In this document: positions 5,136-62,003 of the stretch, in pieces
How positions within the stretch are numbered: the stretch's first letter is position 1
Layout: the number at the start of each line of letters is the position of its first letter
NCBI RefSeq assembly: GCF_014647115.1
Contig: NZ_BMOO01000005.1
Span: 62,001 to 126,000, forward strand
DNA length: 64,000 nt
DNA from: Halarchaeum rubridurum
GTDB lineage: Archaea; Halobacteriota; Halobacteria; Halobacteriales; Halobacteriaceae
Direction of reading: 5' to 3'
Position numbers and translations under genes: made by a program
The notes under the pieces: generated by a model
Seen by the model: only the letters and a program-made list of their open reading frames with translations
Told to the model about the DNA's origin: nothing
Database searches by the model: none

Positions 5136-5507
5136 TCAGACCTCGACGCCGCCGATTTCGAAGAACCGACCGTCCGTGACGTAGTTGACGCCGATGAGGG
5201 CGATGAAGACGCCGCCGAGGACGGGAACGATCCGGGCGAGGAGGGCGCTCTCGACCGTGAGGGCGCTGACCGCCATCGAGGCGCCCAGCGCGACGTCACC
5301 GACCCCGACGAGGCGGAGCGCGCCGACGCGCTCGCGGAGCGGGTTCGCGAAGCCGCCGGCCACACAGCAGAGGCCCGCGAGGGCGACGAGCCCGATCTGG
5401 ACGGCGACGGCCCCGTGGAGGGCGTCGAGCCCGAACCCGACGACGAACGCGGCGGTGAGCGCGAGGAGGAGCGCACCGAGGTAGCCGAAGTAACGGACGT
5501 GGACCAT
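5136..5507 (-). CDS. Small haloarchaeal membrane protein
   Basis: The product has 123 residues and about four hydrophobic segments (YLGALLLALTAAFVVGF, VAVQIGLVALAGLCC, a third near residue 75, and VPVLGGVFIALIGVNYV). It starts MVHVRYFGYL. An in-frame extension to 5597 would add a basic, repeat-derived leader from the hairpin array and is rejected. It has no recognisable catalytic motif and resembles small multi-pass haloarchaeal proteins of unknown function. Confidence 0.75.
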   Translation of the reverse strand: MVHVRYFGYLGALLLALTAAFVVGFGLDALHGAVAVQIGLVALAGLCCVAGGFANPLRERVGALRLVGVGDVALGASMAVSALTVESALLARIVPVLGGVFIALIGVNYVTDGRFFEIGGVEV

Positions 5508-5544
5508 ACGCGGCGTTCGACGCCGCCGGGGAAGAACGTTCGCC

Positions 5545-5701
5545 CGACGAGGCTTACGCCTCGTCGAACTGGGCAGGACTCCGTCCTGCGTGCTCAACGA
5601 GGCTCCGCTTCGCTACGCCTCGTCGAACTGGGCGGAGCGGAGCTCCGCTTGCCCGACGAACCCTTTCAGGCTTCGTCGAACTGGGCGACGCGGGGCGTCG
5701 C
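5545..5701. repeat. Tandem array of three paired-hairpin units
   Basis: Three units each consist of a larger palindrome built on CGACGA...TCGTCG, a linker AACTGG and a tight 7+3+7 hairpin. The tight hairpins are GCAGGAC-TCC-GTCCTGC (5573-5589), GCGGAGC-GGA-GCTCCGC (5632-5648) and GCGACGC-GGG-GCGTCGC (5685-5701). The repeated block TCGTCGAACTGGGC occurs at 5561, 5620 and 5673. The small arms differ in sequence but each remains fully complementary. The array fills most of the gap between two minus-strand genes and would be transcribed past the end of the dehydratase gene, so it could form RNA hairpins there. Confidence 0.8.
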
Positions 5702-5718
5702 GTGCTCGACGAGTCGCT

Positions 5719-6957
5719 TCACTCCTCGTCGAACAGCGTCTCGCCCTCGACCATGTGCGCCTCGACGGCGTCCATGTCGAGCGTGAGACCGAGGCCGGGC
5801 TTCTCGGGAATCTCGATTCGGCCGTCCTCGATGACGTCCTCCTCGACGAGGTCCGCCCACCAGCCGAGCTCGTAGGAGTGGTACTCGACGGCGAGGGCGT
5901 TCGGGATGGCGGCACCGACCTGCGCGGACGCCATCGTGGCGATGGGCGAGGAGACGTTGTGCATCGCCACCGGGACGTAGTACTGGTTCGCCACGTCCGC
6001 GATCTTCTGCGTCTCGCGCATCCCGCCGACCTTCGGGAGGTCGGGCGCGACGATGTCGACCGCCTGGTTCTCGATGAGCCGACGTTCCTCGGTCACGCGA
6101 TAGCGGTTCTCGCCGACCGTAATCGGCGTGAGCGTGGACTTCGTGACCTCCTCTTGCACCTCGAGGTTCTCCGGCGGGACGGGGTCTTCGAGCCACCAGA
6201 CGTCGTACTCCTCGATGGCGGCCGCGAGGCGCTTCGCGCTCCCGCCGGAGAACGTCCAGTGGCAGTCGAAGGCGACGTCCGCGCGGTCCTTCACGCGCTC
6301 CGTCACGGCCTCCACGATTTCGGCCTTGTGCCGAATCTCGCCCGGGCGGAGGTGGCGGTTCGCGCGGTCCTTCTCGTGACCGGAGGGGACGTCGAGGTCG
6401 AACTTGAGGGCGTCGTAGCCGAGTTCCTCGACGACGCGCTCGGCCTCGTCCGCGCAGGCCTCGGGGTCGGCCTCCGCCTCGGTGTGACAGTCGCAGTAGA
6501 CGCGCACCTCGTCTCTGTACTTCCCGCCGAGAAGCTGGTAGGCGGGCACGTCGAGAATCTTGCCGGCGAGGTCGTGGAGCGCGACCTCGATGCCGGCGAT
6601 GGCGGTGACGGTGACGCCCTCGACGCTCCCCTCGCCGCTCATCTTCTGGACGAGGTGCTCGTAGAGCCGGTCGATGTCGAGGGGGTTCTCGCCGATGACG
6701 AACGGCGCCATCCGGTCGATGAGCTCGGGGACCCCCGCGCCCCAGTAGGCCTCACCGGTGCCGACGATGCCCGCGTCCGTGTAGATACGGACGAGCGTCC
6801 ACGGGAAGTTCCCATCCACCATCGTCGTCTGCACGTCCGTAATCTCGACGTCGCGCCCGCCCCCGCGCTCCGCCGTTACGCCCATCGTGTCCGCGGAGAG
6901 TTCGCGCATCGTGTACTCCGCGTTCGGGTCGTGGAGCTCTCGGTAGTCCTTCGCCAT
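5719..6957 (-). CDS. Sugar-acid dehydratase of the enolase superfamily, probably D-gluconate dehydratase
   Basis: The 412-residue product belongs to the mandelate racemase/muconate lactonising branch. The N-terminal capping domain includes ITDVQTTMVDGNFPWTLVRI and the lid loop GTGEAYWGAG. The barrel includes the acid-base region DALKFDLDVP, the metal ligands FDCHW, WLEDPVPPEN and VGENRYR, and a late VAMHNVSSP. It closely resembles haloarchaeal gluconate dehydratases of the semi-phosphorylative Entner-Doudoroff pathway, which convert gluconate to 2-keto-3-deoxygluconate; a related aldonate is possible. MAKDYRELHD is chosen as the start; five more codons in frame to 6972 are less likely. The pathway regulator gfcR lies 1.5 kb away, which supports the role. 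Confidence 0.8.
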   Translation of the reverse strand: MAKDYRELHDPNAEYTMRELSADTMGVTAERGGGRDVEITDVQTTMVDGNFPWTLVRIYTDAGIVGTGEAYWGAGVPELIDRMAPFVIGENPLDIDRLYEHLVQKMSGEGSVEGVTVTAIAGIEVALHDLAGKILDVPAYQLLGGKYRDEVRVYCDCHTEAEADPEACADEAERVVEELGYDALKFDLDVPSGHEKDRANRHLRPGEIRHKAEIVEAVTERVKDRADVAFDCHWTFSGGSAKRLAAAIEEYDVWWLEDPVPPENLEVQEEVTKSTLTPITVGENRYRVTEERRLIENQAVDIVAPDLPKVGGMRETQKIADVANQYYVPVAMHNVSSPIATMASAQVGAAIPNALAVEYHSYELGWWADLVEEDVIEDGRIEIPEKPGLGLTLDMDAVEAHMVEGETLFDEE

Positions 6958-7005
6958 AGTGGCGAGATTCACTCGACGTAGGGTAAATCTTGTGAGTCTT
7001 TCCCG

Positions 7006-8408: not shown

Positions 8409-9074
8409 ATGAAGAACGTCGACGACCTCATCGACAGCGCCGGCGACCTCGCCGCCCGCGGGCTCTCCCGCGGCGAGATCGCCGACGAACTGAACGTCTC
8501 GCGCGAGACGGCGAGCTGGCTCGTCGAGCGCGCCGGCCGCAGCACCGGCGCGACCGACGTCGAGACCGAACCCGCGAGCGCCGGCGGCCCGCAGGACGTC
8601 CACGTCGACTGGAGCGCCATCGGCGAGGCCGGCGCGCGACTCTCCGCCGTCGGCGTCGCACTCGCCGACCTCCTCCGCGAACACAGCCACGACGTCGACC
8701 TCGTCATCGGCGTCGAGAAGGCTGGCGTCCCCCTCGCCACCGCCGTCGCGCGCGAACTCGAAACCGACCTCGGGACGTACACCCCCCGCAAGCACCAGTG
8801 GGAGGAAGGGGACATCGAGGACCTCGGCGGGAGCTTCAGCCGCAACTTCGCGCAGGTCGAGGGCCGCGACTGCTTCATCGTCGACGACACCATCACCTCC
8901 GGCACCACCATCAACGAGGCCGTCGAGGCCATCGAGGAGACCGGCGGGCACGCCATCGCCGCCGCCGTCCTCGTCGACAAACAGGGCGTCGGCGACGTCG
9001 AGGGCGTCCCCGTCGACGCGCTCATGCAGGTCATCCGCGTCGGCAACGACAGCGACGCCGACGGGGACGAGTAA
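8409..9074 (+). CDS. gfcR: Transcriptional regulator GfcR (PyrE-like)
   Basis: This 221-residue protein has an N-terminal HTH (residues 17-42, GLSRGEIADELNVSRETASW) joined to a type I phosphoribosyltransferase domain. The PRPP loop is CFIVDDTITSGTTINEA at about residue 157, and the flexible loop is GTYTPRKHQWEE. In Haloferax and Halobacterium, GfcR activates genes of glucose and fructose catabolism (semi-phosphorylative Entner-Doudoroff and lower glycolysis) and is thought to sense a 2-keto-3-deoxy sugar acid. Its position near the dehydratase gene matches that role. A strong hairpin follows the stop. Confidence 0.93.
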   Translation: MKNVDDLIDSAGDLAARGLSRGEIADELNVSRETASWLVERAGRSTGATDVETEPASAGGPQDVHVDWSAIGEAGARLSAVGVALADLLREHSHDVDLVIGVEKAGVPLATAVARELETDLGTYTPRKHQWEEGDIEDLGGSFSRNFAQVEGRDCFIVDDTITSGTTINEAVEAIEETGGHAIAAAVLVDKQGVGDVEGVPVDALMQVIRVGNDSDADGDE

Positions 9075-9089: not shown

Positions 9090-9110
9090 GGGGGCGACGT
9101 AGTCGCCCCC
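9090..9110. repeat. 9+3+9 hairpin after gfcR
   Basis: GGGGGCGAC-GTA-GTCGCCCCC is a perfect stem with a 3-nt loop, 16 nt after the gfcR stop. It has the same geometry as the paired hairpins elsewhere in the window. It may act as an RNA 3'-end structure. No T-tract of the bacterial terminator kind follows. Confidence 0.6.
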
Positions 9111-9593: not shown

Positions 9594-9640
9594 ACGACCT
9601 GCGAGGGCGATTTCCCCGACCCACCGGGGTCGGGGGTGTC

Positions 9641-9691
9641 ACCAGAACGCTTCGCGTTCTGGTTGCTAACCAGAAGTCTCCGACTTCTGGT
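9641..9691. repeat. Paired hairpins beside the IS200/IS605 element
   Basis: The two hairpins are ACCAGAACGC-TTC-GCGTTCTGGT (9641-9663) and ACCAGAAGTC-TCC-GACTTCTGGT (9669-9691), joined by TGCTA. Both share the outer ACCAGAA/TTCTGGT arms. Positions 9638-9664, read on the minus strand, are identical over 27 nt to 30432-30458 inside dnaK. The pair lies just before the 3' end of tnpA and could be part of the left end of the element. Confidence 0.85.
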
Positions 9692-9711: not shown

Positions 9712-10161
9712 TTAGTGTTCTGTCTCCTCGATATACCGTTCAACCACTTCCTCCGACACGGCTCCCGTCGTTCCCACGTAGTATCCGACCTTCCAGAATC
9801 CACCGCCCCAGAAATACGACTCCCGAATCTCGGGATACCGTTCCAGTAGGTGGTTTCCTGAGTACGACTTGAACTGCCGAGCAATATCTGCTGGACTGTG
9901 TTTCGAATCTGTTTGCACGAACAGGTGTACGTGGTCGTCTGCAATCTCCAACGCCAGAATTTCGTGCTCGAAGTGGTCGGCAGTCTCCGCAAACAACTCT
10001 CGCACATCGACCTCCACTACATCGAGAACCGGGTGGCGGTACTAAGCGGGATCGGAGATCCCGCGAGGTACGCAAATCGAAGATTTGCTTGACTTGGGAC
10101 ACCAGACGAAGTGATACTTGCAGGAACTGACCGAATGTGCGTGACTGCGGTACTCCTCCAT
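9712..10161 (-). pseudogene. tnpA: IS200-type HUH transposase TnpA, interrupted by a 51-bp insertion
   Basis: Read from the ATG at 10161 the frame gives MEEYRSHAHSVSSCKYHFVW and then CPK. Next come 17 foreign codons ending in TAG (10042-10092), after which the family sequence resumes with YRHPVLDVVEVDVRELFAET. The resumed part contains the HUH pair (DDHVHLFV) and the late FKSYSGNHLL and GGGFWKVGYYVG blocks. The whole frame is 150 codons. Removing the stop and the insert leaves 132 residues, the normal TnpA size, so the insertion is exact and in frame. The catalytic Tyr region (VGYYVG) is present in the downstream part. Without readthrough the protein stops after about 40 residues. Confidence 0.9.
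10042..10092. repeat. Paired-hairpin insertion inside tnpA
   Basis: Two hairpins, GCGGGATC-GGA-GATCCCGC and GCAAATC-GAA-GATTTGC, are joined by GAGGTAC and bounded by AAGC and GCTTG. The trinucleotide ACT occurs on both sides, so the event can be read as a 48-bp element with a 3-bp target duplication. Geometry matches the pairs at 9641 and in dnaK. The insert brings an in-frame TAG. Confidence 0.85.
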
Positions 10162-10170
10162 CCCTCTTCC

Positions 10171-10181
10171 CTATATTTATG
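10171..10181. promoter_or_regulatory. Shared AT-rich promoter between tnpA and tnpB
   Basis: CTATATTTATG lies 25-35 nt before the tnpB ATG and reads as a TATA box on either strand. Confidence 0.5.
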
Positions 10182-10205
10182 ACAGTCTGGAACGATTGTC
10201 AAAGC

Positions 10206-11507
10206 ATGGGTGAAGAAGCCACGAAAACCATTCAGACGCGCCTACACATAGCGTCTGGTGAACGGTCGTGGCTTCACGACGCCCGCCTCGCTTCGCGCGA
10301 GATATTCAACGAGACCATCCGCCTCACACAACACGGGGACAGTCGCACCGAGATACAGCGAGAGGTTGACCGCGACGACTTCTTGCGGAACAACAAGTGC
10401 GCGGTCGTCGGCAAAGCCCTCCAGACGTGGGACTCCTACCAGTCACTCAAAGAGTGGTGGGAGAATCAAGACGACCCAGATAGTGGTAAGCCGACGCCGC
10501 CGAGTACGGACAGCTCTGGTGCGTACCCGCTCGTGATGGCGCATACGGAGGGCTATCGCCTTACCGTTGACGACACGAACCGCGTCCAGTTCCGCATCAG
10601 CCCGAAACCCTACAAGAAGGTGAGAGGCCACCTTCGGAGTGAACCGGACGCGATGGACGAACTTCGAGACGCTCTCGCGTCGGACGAGGTGGATGTGGGG
10701 CAAGCCGAACTCCTGTACCGCGATGGCGTGTACTACCTACACGTCACGGTCACACGCGAGTTCGACGTGCCCGAACCCGACACCAGCGACACGCTTGTTG
10801 GCGTGGACATCAACGAGCGCAACGTCGCTCTCACCGCCCTCGACCGCGAGACGATGCGGACGAAGGGCACACTCGTCCCCGACTCCGGGCGAGTAAAGCA
10901 GGAACGCCAACGCTACCACACGATCACTACTCGCTGTCAGGAACACGGCAAGACGAGCATCCACCGGAAACTCGGTGACAAGGAGGAACGATTTACCGAG
11001 TGGGTGTTGCATCGGCTCTCCCGTGCTGTCGTGGAGTTCGCAGAGCAGTTCTCGAATCCGGTTATCGTGTTCGAGGATATGAGTGGCATCCGCGAGGAAA
11101 TACAGTACGGCTCGTATATGAACCGCCGGTTGCACAAATTGCCGTTCCACAAGTTCAAGAAGTTTGTCTCGTACAAGGCAACGTGGCGAGAGATTCCGAC
11201 GGATACGGTGGATGCGTACTACAACTCGAAGACGTGTTCGTGCTGTGGTGAGCGTGGCAGTCGACAGGGACGGCGGTTCCGGTGTCCGAACGACGAGTGT
11301 GACGTGGCGCAAGACCACGCTGACCGGAATGCGTCGGTGAATATTGCGTGGCGCGAGAGGGCGAAACTCGACGGTAATACGACGAATTACCGGACTCACA
11401 AAACCCAGCCGCAGGTCAGGTTGGTGCGTCTGTCCGGGTCGGGGCGTGTAAGCCGCCCAACCTCATCCCGTTCCCTTGCGGAACAGGGAGTGCTAGCGCA
11501 CGGCTGA
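10206..11507 (+). CDS. tnpB: TnpB, RNA-guided nuclease of the IS200/IS605 family
   Basis: The 433-residue product carries the RuvC-like triad: Asp in LVGVDINERN (about 200), Glu in VIVFEDMSG (about 287) and Asp in DHADRNASVNIAW (about 382). A zinc ribbon SCCGERGS/CPNDEC sits between the last two, so all catalytic residues are intact. TnpB proteins cleave DNA guided by an RNA from the element's right end and help retain the IS. The guide RNA would cover the tnpB 3' end and the bases after 11507. The Arg/Ser-rich tail overlaps palindromic DNA of the right end. Confidence 0.92.
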   Translation: MGEEATKTIQTRLHIASGERSWLHDARLASREIFNETIRLTQHGDSRTEIQREVDRDDFLRNNKCAVVGKALQTWDSYQSLKEWWENQDDPDSGKPTPPSTDSSGAYPLVMAHTEGYRLTVDDTNRVQFRISPKPYKKVRGHLRSEPDAMDELRDALASDEVDVGQAELLYRDGVYYLHVTVTREFDVPEPDTSDTLVGVDINERNVALTALDRETMRTKGTLVPDSGRVKQERQRYHTITTRCQEHGKTSIHRKLGDKEERFTEWVLHRLSRAVVEFAEQFSNPVIVFEDMSGIREEIQYGSYMNRRLHKLPFHKFKKFVSYKATWREIPTDTVDAYYNSKTCSCCGERGSRQGRRFRCPNDECDVAQDHADRNASVNIAWRERAKLDGNTTNYRTHKTQPQVRLVRLSGSGRVSRPTSSRSLAEQGVLAHG

Positions 11508-11638
11508 GGGAATTACAAAAGCCTCGGGCCACCGCGCCCCAGGCTGTTTACCCCCGCTCAATCGCGACCGACGCGGTTCTTCTCTCGACGCGCTGTGCCC
11601 GAGAGTCACTCACGTCGACCGAAGCGACGGCGTTCGCG

Positions 11639-28541: not shown

Positions 28542-30500
28542 ATGGCCAGTCAGAAGATTCTCGGTATCGACCTCGGTACCACGAACAGCGCGTTCGCGGT
28601 GATGGAGGGCGGCGAGCCCGAGATCATCGCCAACAGCGAGGGCGAGCGGACGACGCCCTCCGTCGTCGCGTGGGACGACGGCGAACTCCTCGTCGGGAAA
28701 CCCGCGAAGAACCAGGCCGTGCAGAACCCGGACCAGACCGTCGCCTCCATCAAGCGCCACATGGGCGAGGAGGACTACACGGTCGAACTCGGCGACGATG
28801 AGTACACGCCCGAGGAGGTCAGCGCGCGCATCCTCCAGAAGATAAAGCGCGACGCCGAGGACTACCTCGGCGACGACGTTGAGAAGGCCGTCATCACGGT
28901 CCCGGCGTACTTCAACGACAAGCAGCGCCAGGCGACGAAGAACGCCGGCCAGATCGCGGGCTTCGACGTCGAGCGCATCGTCAACGAGCCCACGGCGGCC
29001 TCGATGGCGTACGGCCTCGACGAGGAGGGCGAGAACACGGTGCTCGTCTACGACCTCGGCGGCGGGACGTTCGACGTCTCCGTCCTCGAAATCGCCGAGG
29101 GCGCGTACGACGTCATCGCCACGAACGGCGACAACGACCTCGGTGGGGACGACTGGGACGAGGCCCTCATCGATCACCTCGCCGACGAGTTCGAAAACGA
29201 ACACGGCATCGACCTCCGCGAGGACCGACAGGCCCTCCAGCGCCTGAAGGACGCCGCCGAGGAGGCGAAGATCGAACTCTCCAGTCGCAAGGAGACGACC
29301 GTCAACCTCCCGTTCATCACGGCGACGGACGACGGCCCCGTCCACCTCGAACAGGACGTGACGCGCGCGACGTTCGAGAAGATCACGAGCGACCTCATCG
29401 AGCGCACCGTCGGCCCGACGCAGCAGGCCCTCTCCGACGCGGGCTTCGACGCGAGCGACATCGACGACGTCGTGCTCGTCGGTGGCTCCACGCGGATGCC
29501 CCAGGTCCAGGAGAAGGTCGAGGAGGTCGTCGGCCAGGAACCCCGGAAGTCCGTCAATCCCGACGAGGCCGTCGCGCTCGGCGCGGCCGTCCAGGGCGGC
29601 GTGCTCTCCGGTGACGTCGACGACGTCGTCCTCCTCGACGTCACGCCCCTCAGCCTCGGTATCGAGGTGAAAGGCGGGCTCTTCGAGCGCCTCGTGGAGA
29701 AGAACACCACCATCCCCACGGAGGCCTCGAAGGTGTTCACGACCGCCGCGGACAACCAGCAGAGCGTCCAGATTCGCGTCTTCCAGGGCGAACGCGAAAT
29801 CGCGGAGGAGAACGAGCTCCTCGGCGCGTTCCAGCTCACCGGCATCCCGCCCGCGCCCGCGGGTACCCCGCAGATCGAGGTCTCCTTCGAGATCGACGCG
29901 GACGGCATCGTCCACGTCTCCGCCGAGGACCAGGGCTCGGGTAACTCCGAGGACATCACCATCGAGGGCGGTGCGGGCCTCAGCGACGAGGAGATCGAGC
30001 GGATGCAGGAGGAAGCGGAGGAACATGCCGCCGAGGACGAGGAGCGCCGCGAGCGCATCGAGGCCCGCAACGAGGCCGAGACCGCCGTTCAGCGCGCCGA
30101 GACGCTCTTAGAGGAGAACGAGGAGATGGTCGACGCGGAGACCCGGGAGACCATCGAGGCCGACATCGACGACATCGAGGCACTCCTCGAGGACGAGGAC
30201 GCCGAGACCGAGGCCATCCAGGACGCCACCGAGGCCCTCAGCGAGGACCTCCAGGAGATCGGCAAGCAGGCCTACCAGCAGCAGGCCGGCGCGGGCGGTG
30301 CGGGCGCCGGTGCCGGTGGCATGGGCGGTATGGGCGACATGGGCGACATGGACCCCGAGGACGTCGACGCCGAGGACTTCGTCGACGCCGACTTCGAGGA
30401 CGTTGACGAATCACGTAGCGATTCGTCAGCCAACCAGAACGCGAAGCGTTCTGGTGACGTTGACGAATCGGACGATGAGTCGGACGCCGACGAGAACTAA
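28542..30500 (+). CDS. dnaK: Hsp70 chaperone DnaK with a palindromic insertion near its C-terminus
   Basis: The 652-residue product has the ATPase signatures [29 protein letters not shown] and [17 protein letters not shown]. The linker [11 protein letters not shown] and the substrate domain up to the helical lid follow. The tail has a Gly/Ala/Met stretch ([16 protein letters not shown]) and an acidic end. Codons 620-638 are encoded by a paired-hairpin sequence and add 19 residues in frame, including the basic [10 protein letters not shown], to an otherwise acidic tail. The insertion lies after the folded domains, so the chaperone should remain functional. Confidence 0.96.
30399..30469. repeat. 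Paired hairpins inside dnaK with 14-bp flanking direct repeats
   Basis: Hairpin 1 is TGACGAATC-ACGTAGC-GATTCGTCA (30404-30428). Hairpin 2 is ACCAGAACGC-GAA-GCGTTCTGGT (30433-30455). GACGTTGACGAATC occurs at 30399-30412 and again at 30456-30469, exactly 57 bp apart. Positions 30432-30458 match 9638-9664 (opposite strand) over 27 nt. Confidence 0.9.
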
Positions 30501-56093: not shown

Positions 56094-56840
56094 ATGGGTG
56101 TCGAGATAAAGGAGTCCGCGCTCACCGCCGACGAACTCGCGTCGATGGAGGCCTTCGTCTACGACTACCTCAGCGCGAGCGTCGAGAACGAGGAGGACGG
56201 CGGCCGGATGCGCTGGTACCCGTGGCACTCCGCTGAGTACCGCTTCAACCACATCTGCAACGTCCGCGAGCTGGCGAGCACCATCGCGGAGCGCGAGGGC
56301 GCGGACGTCGACGTCGTGCGCGTCGCCGCGCTCTTCCACGACATCGCCAAACTCGACGCCGAGCAAGAGGTCCACGCCGAGGAGGGCGCGCGCGTCGCCC
56401 GCCAGTACCTCGAAACGCACGGCGACTATCCGCCGTCGTTCGTCGACCGCGTCTGTCGCGCCGTCGCCTCGCACTCGGAGACGGGCGACCTCGACTCGCT
56501 CGACCTGGAGAGTCGCTGTCTCGTTGAGGCGGACATGCTCGATAAGGTCGGCGCGAACGGCATCGCGTTGATGCTCCTCCGGATGGGCTACGAGGCGCGC
56601 ACGCACATGGACGCGGCGGAGATGGTGACGCGCGTCCTCGAACGCGGCGAGGAAGCCCGGAGACGCGTCCACAGCGACGCCGCGGAGTCGATTGCCCACC
56701 AGCGGCTGAAGCGCGTCCGATGGTTCCGGGAGTGGTTGGACGCCGAGGTCCCGCGGATGGACCCCGAACAGGAGCGCGAACGCGAGCACGAGCGGGACCG
56801 GGAGTCGGATTCGGAATCCGACTCGAAGCCGGAGCGTTAG
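56094..56840 (+). CDS. HD-domain phosphohydrolase
   Basis: The 248-residue product carries the metal motif H...HD...D: FNHICNVRELA, VAALFHDIAK, VASHSETGD and VEADMLDKVGANG. It probably hydrolyses a nucleotide or cyclic nucleotide. The start follows GGAGGTG by 5 nt. A mini-ORF (MTTRHDPPPEVRRWVSR, 56056-56109) overlaps it. The last residues RESDSESDSKPER are encoded by a 10+3+10 hairpin. Confidence 0.85.
   Translation: MGVEIKESALTADELASMEAFVYDYLSASVENEEDGGRMRWYPWHSAEYRFNHICNVRELASTIAEREGADVDVVRVAALFHDIAKLDAEQEVHAEEGARVARQYLETHGDYPPSFVDRVCRAVASHSETGDLDSLDLESRCLVEADMLDKVGANGIALMLLRMGYEARTHMDAAEMVTRVLERGEEARRRVHSDAAESIAHQRLKRVRWFREWLDAEVPRMDPEQEREREHERDRESDSESDSKPER
56802..56824. repeat. 10+3+10 hairpin in the 3' end of the HD gene
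   Basis: GAGTCGGATT-CGG-AATCCGACTC is perfect and ends 16 nt before the stop. The shape is that of the hairpins in dnaK and tnpA, here single. Confidence 0.7.
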
Positions 56841-61327: not shown

Positions 61328-62003
61328 GCGAGCGCTTCCTCCCGACGAGCGACGACGACCCACACCGCGACCAGCCGCTCGTCACGGGCGGCGCGCCCCT
61401 CCGCGCCGCGACGTCGCCGTCGTCCTCCTCCACGGCCGCGGCGAGTCCGCGAAGAGTATCACGCGCGTCGCCGAGGCGTTCTACCGCCACGGCGTCGCCT
61501 TCCTCGCCCCGCAAGCCGCACGCTACACGTGGTACCCGCACCGCTTCGACGCGCCCCGCGAGGCGAACGAGCCGTGGCTCACCTCGGCCGTCGCGGCGGT
61601 CGAACGCGCCGTCGACACCGCCGTCGACGCCGGCCTCGACCGCGAGAAAGTCGTCCTCTTCGGCTTCAGCCAGGGGGCCTGTCTCGTCGCCGACGCGCTC
61701 CGCCGCCGGCCGCGACGCTACGGCGGCGCGTTCGTCCTCGCGGGTGCGCTCCCGGGCGACGACGGGAGCGACGCCGCCGGTCCCCCGGCGGCGAGCGGCG
61801 ACCTCGACGGGACGCCGGTCTACTGCGGCGTCGGTACCGACGACCCGGAAATCGACGCTCCGGCCGTGGAACGGACCGGCGACGCGCTCGCGGCGCTCGG
61901 CGGTGACGTCACCGTCGAGACGTTCCCGGGCGCGCGCCACGCGCTCACCGACGGCGAGGTAGCCGCCGTCGAGTCGCGGCTCGCGGCGCTACTGGACGGG
62001 TGA
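61324..62003 (+). pseudogene. Frameshifted phospholipase/carboxylesterase (MhqD-like)
   Basis: The start SERFLPTSDDDPHRDQPLVT is in one frame. From about 61410 the family sequence continues in another frame: DVAVVLLHGRGESAKSITRV, LFGFSQGACLVADAL with the nucleophile Ser, and VETFPGARHALTD with the His. One lost base near GCGCCGCGACGTC would explain it. The rest is intact up to 62003. A recent mutation or an assembly error are both possible. Confidence 0.8.

Follow-up and report, generated by a model that had tools for sequence, protein, structure and literature searches.

The tandem hairpins directly behind a sugar-acid dehydratase gene of Halarchaeum rubridurum are best explained as the 3' end of the gene repeated several times over. 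Each module of about 50 bp repeats the last codons and the stop codon of the gene (here called T), continues with an inverted copy of T, and adds a second hairpin with free arms. The analysis demonstrates this anatomy, its recurrence at unrelated genes, covariation of the hairpin arms, inversion of hairpin loops, and the insertion and deletion of modules. The origin that we favor, with a probability somewhat short of even, is that the modules were built and are maintained by fold-guided DNA copying (template switching) together with slippage between T repeats.

Anatomy of the dehydratase array

The window, a stretch of 64,000 nucleotides (positions 62,001 to 126,000 of contig NZ_BMOO01000005.1), belongs to a draft genome of 2.81 Mb in 25 contigs. 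An MR/MLE (enolase-superfamily) sugar-acid dehydratase gene (PF13378, PF02746) occupies positions 5719-6972 of its minus strand; the nearest NCBIfam model is glucon_galact_dh, matched with a score under that model's cut-off. The encoded protein ends in ...ETLFDEE*, and the final codons are the first copy of T. Starting right at the 3' end of the gene, a tandem array occupies 5545-5732 and lies between the dehydratase stop and the start of a same-strand gene for 123 aa (5136-5508), for which neither Pfam nor NCBIfam gave a match.

The array is best interpreted on the minus strand, on which the order of elements is T, a short loop, inverted T, a 4-nt linker, hairpin B, a second 4-nt linker, and the next T. 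Hairpin A is formed by T and inverted T, with the stop codon in the loop, and hairpin B has free arms and a loop of about 3 nt. At the gene end the sense strand comprises TTCGACGAGGAGTGA (FDEE*), its inverted copy, GCAC, GCGACGC.CCC.GCGTCGC, and CCAG; module 2 comprises TTCGACGAAGCCTGA (FDEA*), its inverted copy, GCAA, GCGGAGC.TCC.GCTCCGC, and CCAG; and module 3 comprises TTCGACGAGGCGTAG (FDEA*), its inverted copy, GCAC, GCAGGAC.GGA.GTCCTGC, and CCAG. The array ends with TTCGACGAGGCGTAA (FDEA*) and its inverted copy, making three full modules and a terminal half module in total.

The first hairpin A, termed A0 (TCGACGAG.gagtgaagcga.CTCGTCGA; 5706-5732), overlaps the gene: its left arm is partly dehydratase coding sequence, and its loop holds the stop codon at 5719-5721. 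This palindrome was overlooked by the first-pass annotation, which correctly described three tandem hairpin pairs farther along. The three small hairpins are, as stated there, fully paired 7-3-7 structures, with B1 at 5685-5701 (plus strand GCGACGC.GGG.GCGTCGC), B2 at 5632-5648 (GCGGAGC.GGA.GCTCCGC), and B3 at 5573-5589 (GCAGGAC.TCC.GTCCTGC). The constant AACTGG reported directly ahead of each on the plus strand is likewise present (5679-5684, 5626-5631, and 5567-5572) and corresponds on the sense strand to CCAG plus the TT of the following T. The description of the large hairpins as CGACGA/TCGTCG palindromes holds in part. A3 (5545-5566) is perfect, with 9 bp and the 4-nt sense-strand loop GTAA; A1 (5654-5678) has one G-G mismatch, and A2 (5595-5625), which has a 13-nt loop and one mismatch, begins with CAACGA. 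Their T copies are TTC GAC GAA GCC TGA in A1, TTC GAC GAG GCG TAG in A2, and TTC GAC GAG GCG TAA in A3, each encoding FDEA*.

Recurrence of the module plan

More units occur in this genome, as the first-pass reading implied. A second array (L002), 86% identical, lies behind a second dehydratase gene, and at least one complete module was found at 52 of 91 haloarchaeal dehydratase ends, a sample of 80 named loci, 9 other genome loci, L002, and this window, with some dependence among them. Modules of dehydratase arrays are 49-53 bp long, and the stop is retained in 79 of 109 later T copies. Module number differs within Haloferax: Haloferax larsenii (L066) has none, Haloferax elongans (L064) has one 53-bp module in the same place, and Haloferax prahovense has several.

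The same plan, with the gene's own end as T, was observed in this genome 3' of icd (C1:313257), purQ (C1:353185), and rpl11 (L330), the last with an exact tandem duplication of about 110 bp. It was also observed at a purN/purH-type gene of Haloferax marisrubri, where FRHD is followed by TGA or TAG, and at a CBS-domain gene of Halarchaeum nitratireducens. T differs by gene, at least 12 gene-specific nucleotides of it are repeated at every module, and the stop is kept across codon changes: dehydratase copies encode FDEE with TGA or FDEA with TGA, TAG, or TAA, and icd copies encode IEDLA with TGA or TAA. Linkers are common to unrelated genes (GCCA before hairpin B, GCTG or GACG after it), and identical B hairpins were found in different genera, which calls for exchange or common descent. 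A search of a 464-kb sample for exact X, X', X copies singled out only the dnaK site, because T copies diverge; enrichment among the 4-mers flanking all hairpins gave no clear shared motif. The pattern TTCGANNNNGCGTARGCNNNNTCGA was considered as a dispersed element and rejected: it occurred in only 5 of 146 genomes, and the inspected loci were again dehydratase ends.

Unlike the gene-end arrays, the dnaK module (30399-30469, plus strand) lies in frame within coding sequence. It consists of the direct repeat GACGTTGACGAATC, whose first copy (30399-30412) is the T of the module, an in-frame hairpin A (30404-30428), hairpin B (ACCAGAACGC.GAA.GCGTTCTGGT; 30433-30455), and the second copy of the repeat (30456-30469). 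In two genomes of the same family (L173, L175), an inverted copy 3' of the dnaK stop matches a 15-bp arm in coding sequence. An in-frame relative of the dnaK module, of 24 protein letters, at the end of another gene (L206, about 1501-1523; G000:C3:303655) looks like a protein-coding hairpin insert. The first-pass annotation had seen the plan of the dehydratase array at 9641, 10042, and 30404. The order hairpin, linker, hairpin is indeed present at all three, without AACTGG, and they are different things and not the same units: the end of an IS200/IS605 element, an insertion in tnpA, and the dnaK coding sequence.

As a background set, noncoding perfect hairpins with arms of at least 7 bp and loops of 3-9 nt were collected from sampled stretches. 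Loops of 3 nt are favored in Halarchaeum (70 of 157) and in a genome of the same family, G017 (45 of 122); GNA or TNC makes up 34 of the 70 and 25 of the 45, compared with 11/133 and 19/82 in the respective coding sequences. Haloferax has no excess of 3-nt loops or of GNA/TNC (17/77 and 1/17). C-G closes 63% of the noncoding hairpins, compared with 36% of those in coding sequence; in DNA, triloops of the form C(GNA)G have unusual stability. Separately, a dispersed noncoding family of the form GGTTCACTCGCGC..GCGCGAGGCSCRAG-hairpin-GACGSGCTTTTG..CTTTTGCCAG-hairpin occurs in G000 at about C1 149300, 216090, 322970, 323450, and 396260. Its hairpin arms vary between copies and between species (L147, L150, L156, L159), and the stretches scanned for it (L147, L156, L159) yielded no Rfam match to the family. 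A fluoride riboswitch (RF01734) lies at L156:14792-14856 on the minus strand, and a noncoding hairpin with a perfect 23-bp arm, GTTTTTGCCGCGAGGGGTCGCGC.tct.GCGCGACCCCTCGCGGCAAAAAC, lies near G002:C1 53916-53964.

Pairing statistics and change between species

Statistics were based on stretches of 400-740 kb, in which genes were called by a heuristic caller. Folded as RNA, the sense strand of the array reached -118.9 kcal/mol (z = -7.8), a value equaled by none of 200 shuffles; folded as DNA, the sense strand gave z = -5.0 and the other strand z = -3.3. Excision between the successive T repeats of the 52 arrays, blind to pairing, yielded 104 distinct dehydratase-array modules, in 65 of which the B stem is perfect over 7 bp or more, compared with about 1% of shuffled segments. 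When the register is fixed by the 4-nt 3' linker, 77% of cells pair, as against 20-34% in nine slid registers. Among 74 distinct B 17-mers, 75.3% of cells are paired, compared with 41.3% (sd 2.0, with no more than 48.5% in any of 2000 shuffles) after reshuffling of the 3' arms, and there are 32 perfect B hairpins where reshuffled arms give 1.5. Arms in relatives are mostly still paired despite their different sequence. This covariation over units supports the first-pass proposal that structure, as RNA or single-stranded DNA, is what selection or copying acts upon, not sequence.

About 238 kb of this genome were aligned with H. nitratireducens (G002, whose array sequence is the same as that of locus L060), at a median identity of 87.6%; orthology is taken from this alignment of two Halarchaeum species, without outgroup polarization. 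Hairpin arms changed in concert, for example from GGACCACC/GGTGGTCC to AGACCCCC/GGGGGTCT and from GGGTCGCC/GGCGACCC to GAGAGAGC/GCTCTCTC. The 11 listed hairpin pairs contain 16 positions with two-sided change and none with one-sided change, a count that is biased toward kept stems because the list is limited to hairpins still paired in both species. Noncoding two-sided arm differences occur, for example, at C1 216149, 215774, 215821, 216125, 322948, 323490, and 395921; hairpins in coding sequence rarely show them. Many noncoding hairpins have no counterpart (42 of 80 rows, the rows being redundant over loop lengths).

Loops are inverted as well. GAA and TTC are exactly exchanged between identical arms at C1:254729 and in dnaK hairpin B, the loop of which is TTC in the H. 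nitratireducens orthologue, and the loops of array hairpins occur in both senses, those of A hairpins (TTAC, TAC, TTAT, CTAC) included. At icd, H. nitratireducens has one extra module adjoining the gene, and its protein ends in IDDLS* and not IEDLA* because of this gene-proximal module.

Elsewhere in the window, a perfect hairpin at 56802-56824 (GAGTCGGATT.CGG.AATCCGACTC) lies in an acidic gene end and is absent in H. nitratireducens. Another hairpin, at 9090-9110 (GGGGGCGAC.GTA.GTCGCCCCC), lies behind a phosphoribosyltransferase-like gene that ends at 9074; in H. nitratireducens, the stop of the corresponding gene is separated from the hairpin by about 95 bp of additional hairpin sequence. 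At both places hairpin segments were gained or lost cleanly.

Origin and implications of the modules

If the modules arise by fold-guided DNA copying, a template switch inside a hairpin would copy one arm onto the other, and both sides would therefore change in a single event; sometimes it would also flip the loop. The direct T repeats would slip or recombine with one another, and whole modules would be added or removed in this way. Such gain or loss would leave a working gene because each module has its own C-terminus and stop, and any module could turn into the gene end. Template switching is described as homogenizing arms, creating perfect stems, and inverting loops, with ttc<->gaa in yeast (PMC8794818, PMC8604942), and arm homogenization with spacer inversion, ttc<->gaa included, is described as its product (PMC8604942). 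The hairpins studied here resemble the products of template switching and quasipalindrome correction in one-event arm homogenization, perfect stems, and GAA<->TTC inversion between the same arms (PMC8794818, PMC8604942). Those products are described for hairpins that occur singly, in rRNA genes and in coding genes of yeast, whereas the present ones are tandem modules that re-copy a gene end and its stop codon. Small inverted triplications (PMC13334657) similarly consist of direct, inverted, and direct copies of one segment with a spacer, as in T, T', T. They average 148/160/148 bp and come from yeast and cancer genomes, whereas T here measures about 10-20 bp, and between T' and T stands another hairpin that is unrelated to them.

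On the sense strand, the loops of dehydratase arrays comprise 19 TNC and 14 GNA and therefore lack a strand preference, and internal mismatches, as read from the listed hairpins judged to be true array members, comprise about 4 G.T and 5 A.C. The loop inversions, the balance of loops between strands, the balance of mismatches, and the published template-switch products therefore favor DNA-level copying; the evidence leans this way and is not proof. We infer that a polymerase switching templates is responsible, along with the emergence of new B arms and near-neutrality. In its simple form, a template switch leaves the shared linkers, the regular length of about 50 bp, and the unmatched B arms unexplained: the arm of hairpin A is an inverted copy of the nearby T, and the B arms and the tnpA insertion match no nearby sequence.

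DNA copying and an RNA role can both hold. That the modules are 3'-UTR RNA elements of well-expressed genes, terminating transcripts or shielding the 3' ends of the mRNA, with pairing kept by selection on the RNA fold, is a possibility of modest probability. The array lies directly 3' of a stop codon, its sense RNA folds far better than shuffled sequence, and the genes affected are housekeeping genes, all in keeping with such a role. Hairpin-linked 3' ends have also been published for Haloferax volcanii, in which some 3' ends have hairpins nearby and, in a reporter, 59% of transcripts were terminated by one hairpin (PMC7237163). In 4 of 5 genomes, convergent gaps contain more triloop hairpins per kb than divergent gaps do (1.54 vs 0.36 in the Halobacterium-family genome G017, 0.64 vs 0.19 in Haloferax, 0.88 vs 0.53 in H. 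nitratireducens, and 1.52 vs 1.17 in Halarchaeum); however, the convergent gaps of Haloarcula are not enriched over tandem gaps, and hairpins are present in divergent gaps and coding sequence too. Taken over all A hairpins, the outermost pair on the sense strand is T.G in most cases (T.G 18, A.C 1, C.A 1), as an RNA role predicts, yet internal G.T pairs are not commoner than A.C, the loops have no sense-strand preference, and exact loop inversions occur even within the dnaK coding sequence. Many haloarchaea, close relatives included, have the dehydratase orthologue without an array. A T-run terminator is absent at the array, a search of 5400-5800 for a stem with a T-run having found none, and no Rfam family exceeded its gathering score at 5545-5732.

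An IS200/IS605 element is also present in the window, with tnpA at 9712-10017, TnpB at 10137-11507, and a match to sot2652 RNA (RF02657) at 11386-11575. Three hairpins at its tnpA end (9614-9691) are near-terminal palindromes. A double-hairpin insertion of about 51 bp (10041-10091, minus strand), around which GTACC is repeated, lies in the N-terminal part of tnpA, whose frame is interrupted nearby, and corresponds to a gap in the alignment with the tnpA of L342. These hairpins and this insertion are related material, not the same array.

It is rather unlikely that the modules are mobile hairpin elements, either terminal-only derivatives of IS200/IS605 elements (PATEs) or folded-strand cassettes moved by a recombinase, placed in tandem at gene ends. 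An origin from IS605-type (PATE-like) elements is conceivable for some B hairpins. Such mobility would accord with the exact recurrence of the dnaK hairpin B arms in two other hairpins, the one at 9641 in the IS200/IS605 end and one at C3:303655 (a recurrence seen for dnaK hairpin B and not for the dehydratase B hairpins), with an in-frame relative of 18 protein letters in two genes of this genome, with the linkers that unrelated genes have in common, and with the double hairpin within tnpA. Haloarchaeal PATEs derive from IS605-type elements and include 52-bp terminal-only forms (PMC3119063), close to the module length; short palindromes, haloarchaeal hosts, and one identical B hairpin are further likenesses. 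Unlike PATEs, which use a 4-5-bp target without target duplication (PMC3119063), the modules carry a gene-dependent T of at least 12 nt with a stop codon, and their arms vary by module, far more than those of a dispersed repeat. Moreover, the dehydratase T motif occurs at few places per genome, clustered at the dehydratase locus, and the B sequence GCGAATC.TCC.GATTCGC is not dispersed. A Y1 transposase was rejected as the driver of the arrays because H. nitratireducens (G002) has arrays and no match to PF01797 (Y1_Tnp). REP/BIME arrays with RAYT transposases resemble the present ones in alternating hairpins and intergenic arrays and differ in that here the hairpin sequence is not constant and RAYT is not needed (PMC2817692).

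Doubtful, too, is an undescribed haloarchaeal cassette system, in which modules of about 50 bp would be recognized through the folding of a single DNA strand and not through their sequence. They would enter the 3' ends of genes, supply or regenerate each gene's own final codons and stop, and be shuffled. Integron attC sites are recognized by folded-strand structure, with sequence free to vary, and occur in cassette arrays; here, the hairpins are simple, perfect, and short-looped, and no integrase or cassette genes were seen. If such a system were real, protein C-termini and 3' UTRs would be exchanged in rotation. A literature search with most subscription journals outside its scope found no description of haloarchaeal gene-end hairpin arrays. 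Ordinary tandem duplication with chance palindromes is very improbable: GC is about 70% and perfect 7-bp hairpins are common in coding sequence as well, but the reshuffled-arm and shuffled-segment controls, the noncoding excess of triloops and C-G closing pairs, and the inverted, gene-specific T copy at several genes all argue against it.

Compensatory change is commonly taken to prove that an RNA stem is functional. The arrays form a natural archaeal series of many comparable hairpins in which covariation goes together with inverted loops, indicative of DNA copying, and covariation alone is insufficient for calling such stems functional RNAs. The series would allow template switching in archaea to be measured. 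Gene ends are replaced module by module, and stop codons and protein C-termini differ between closely related species.
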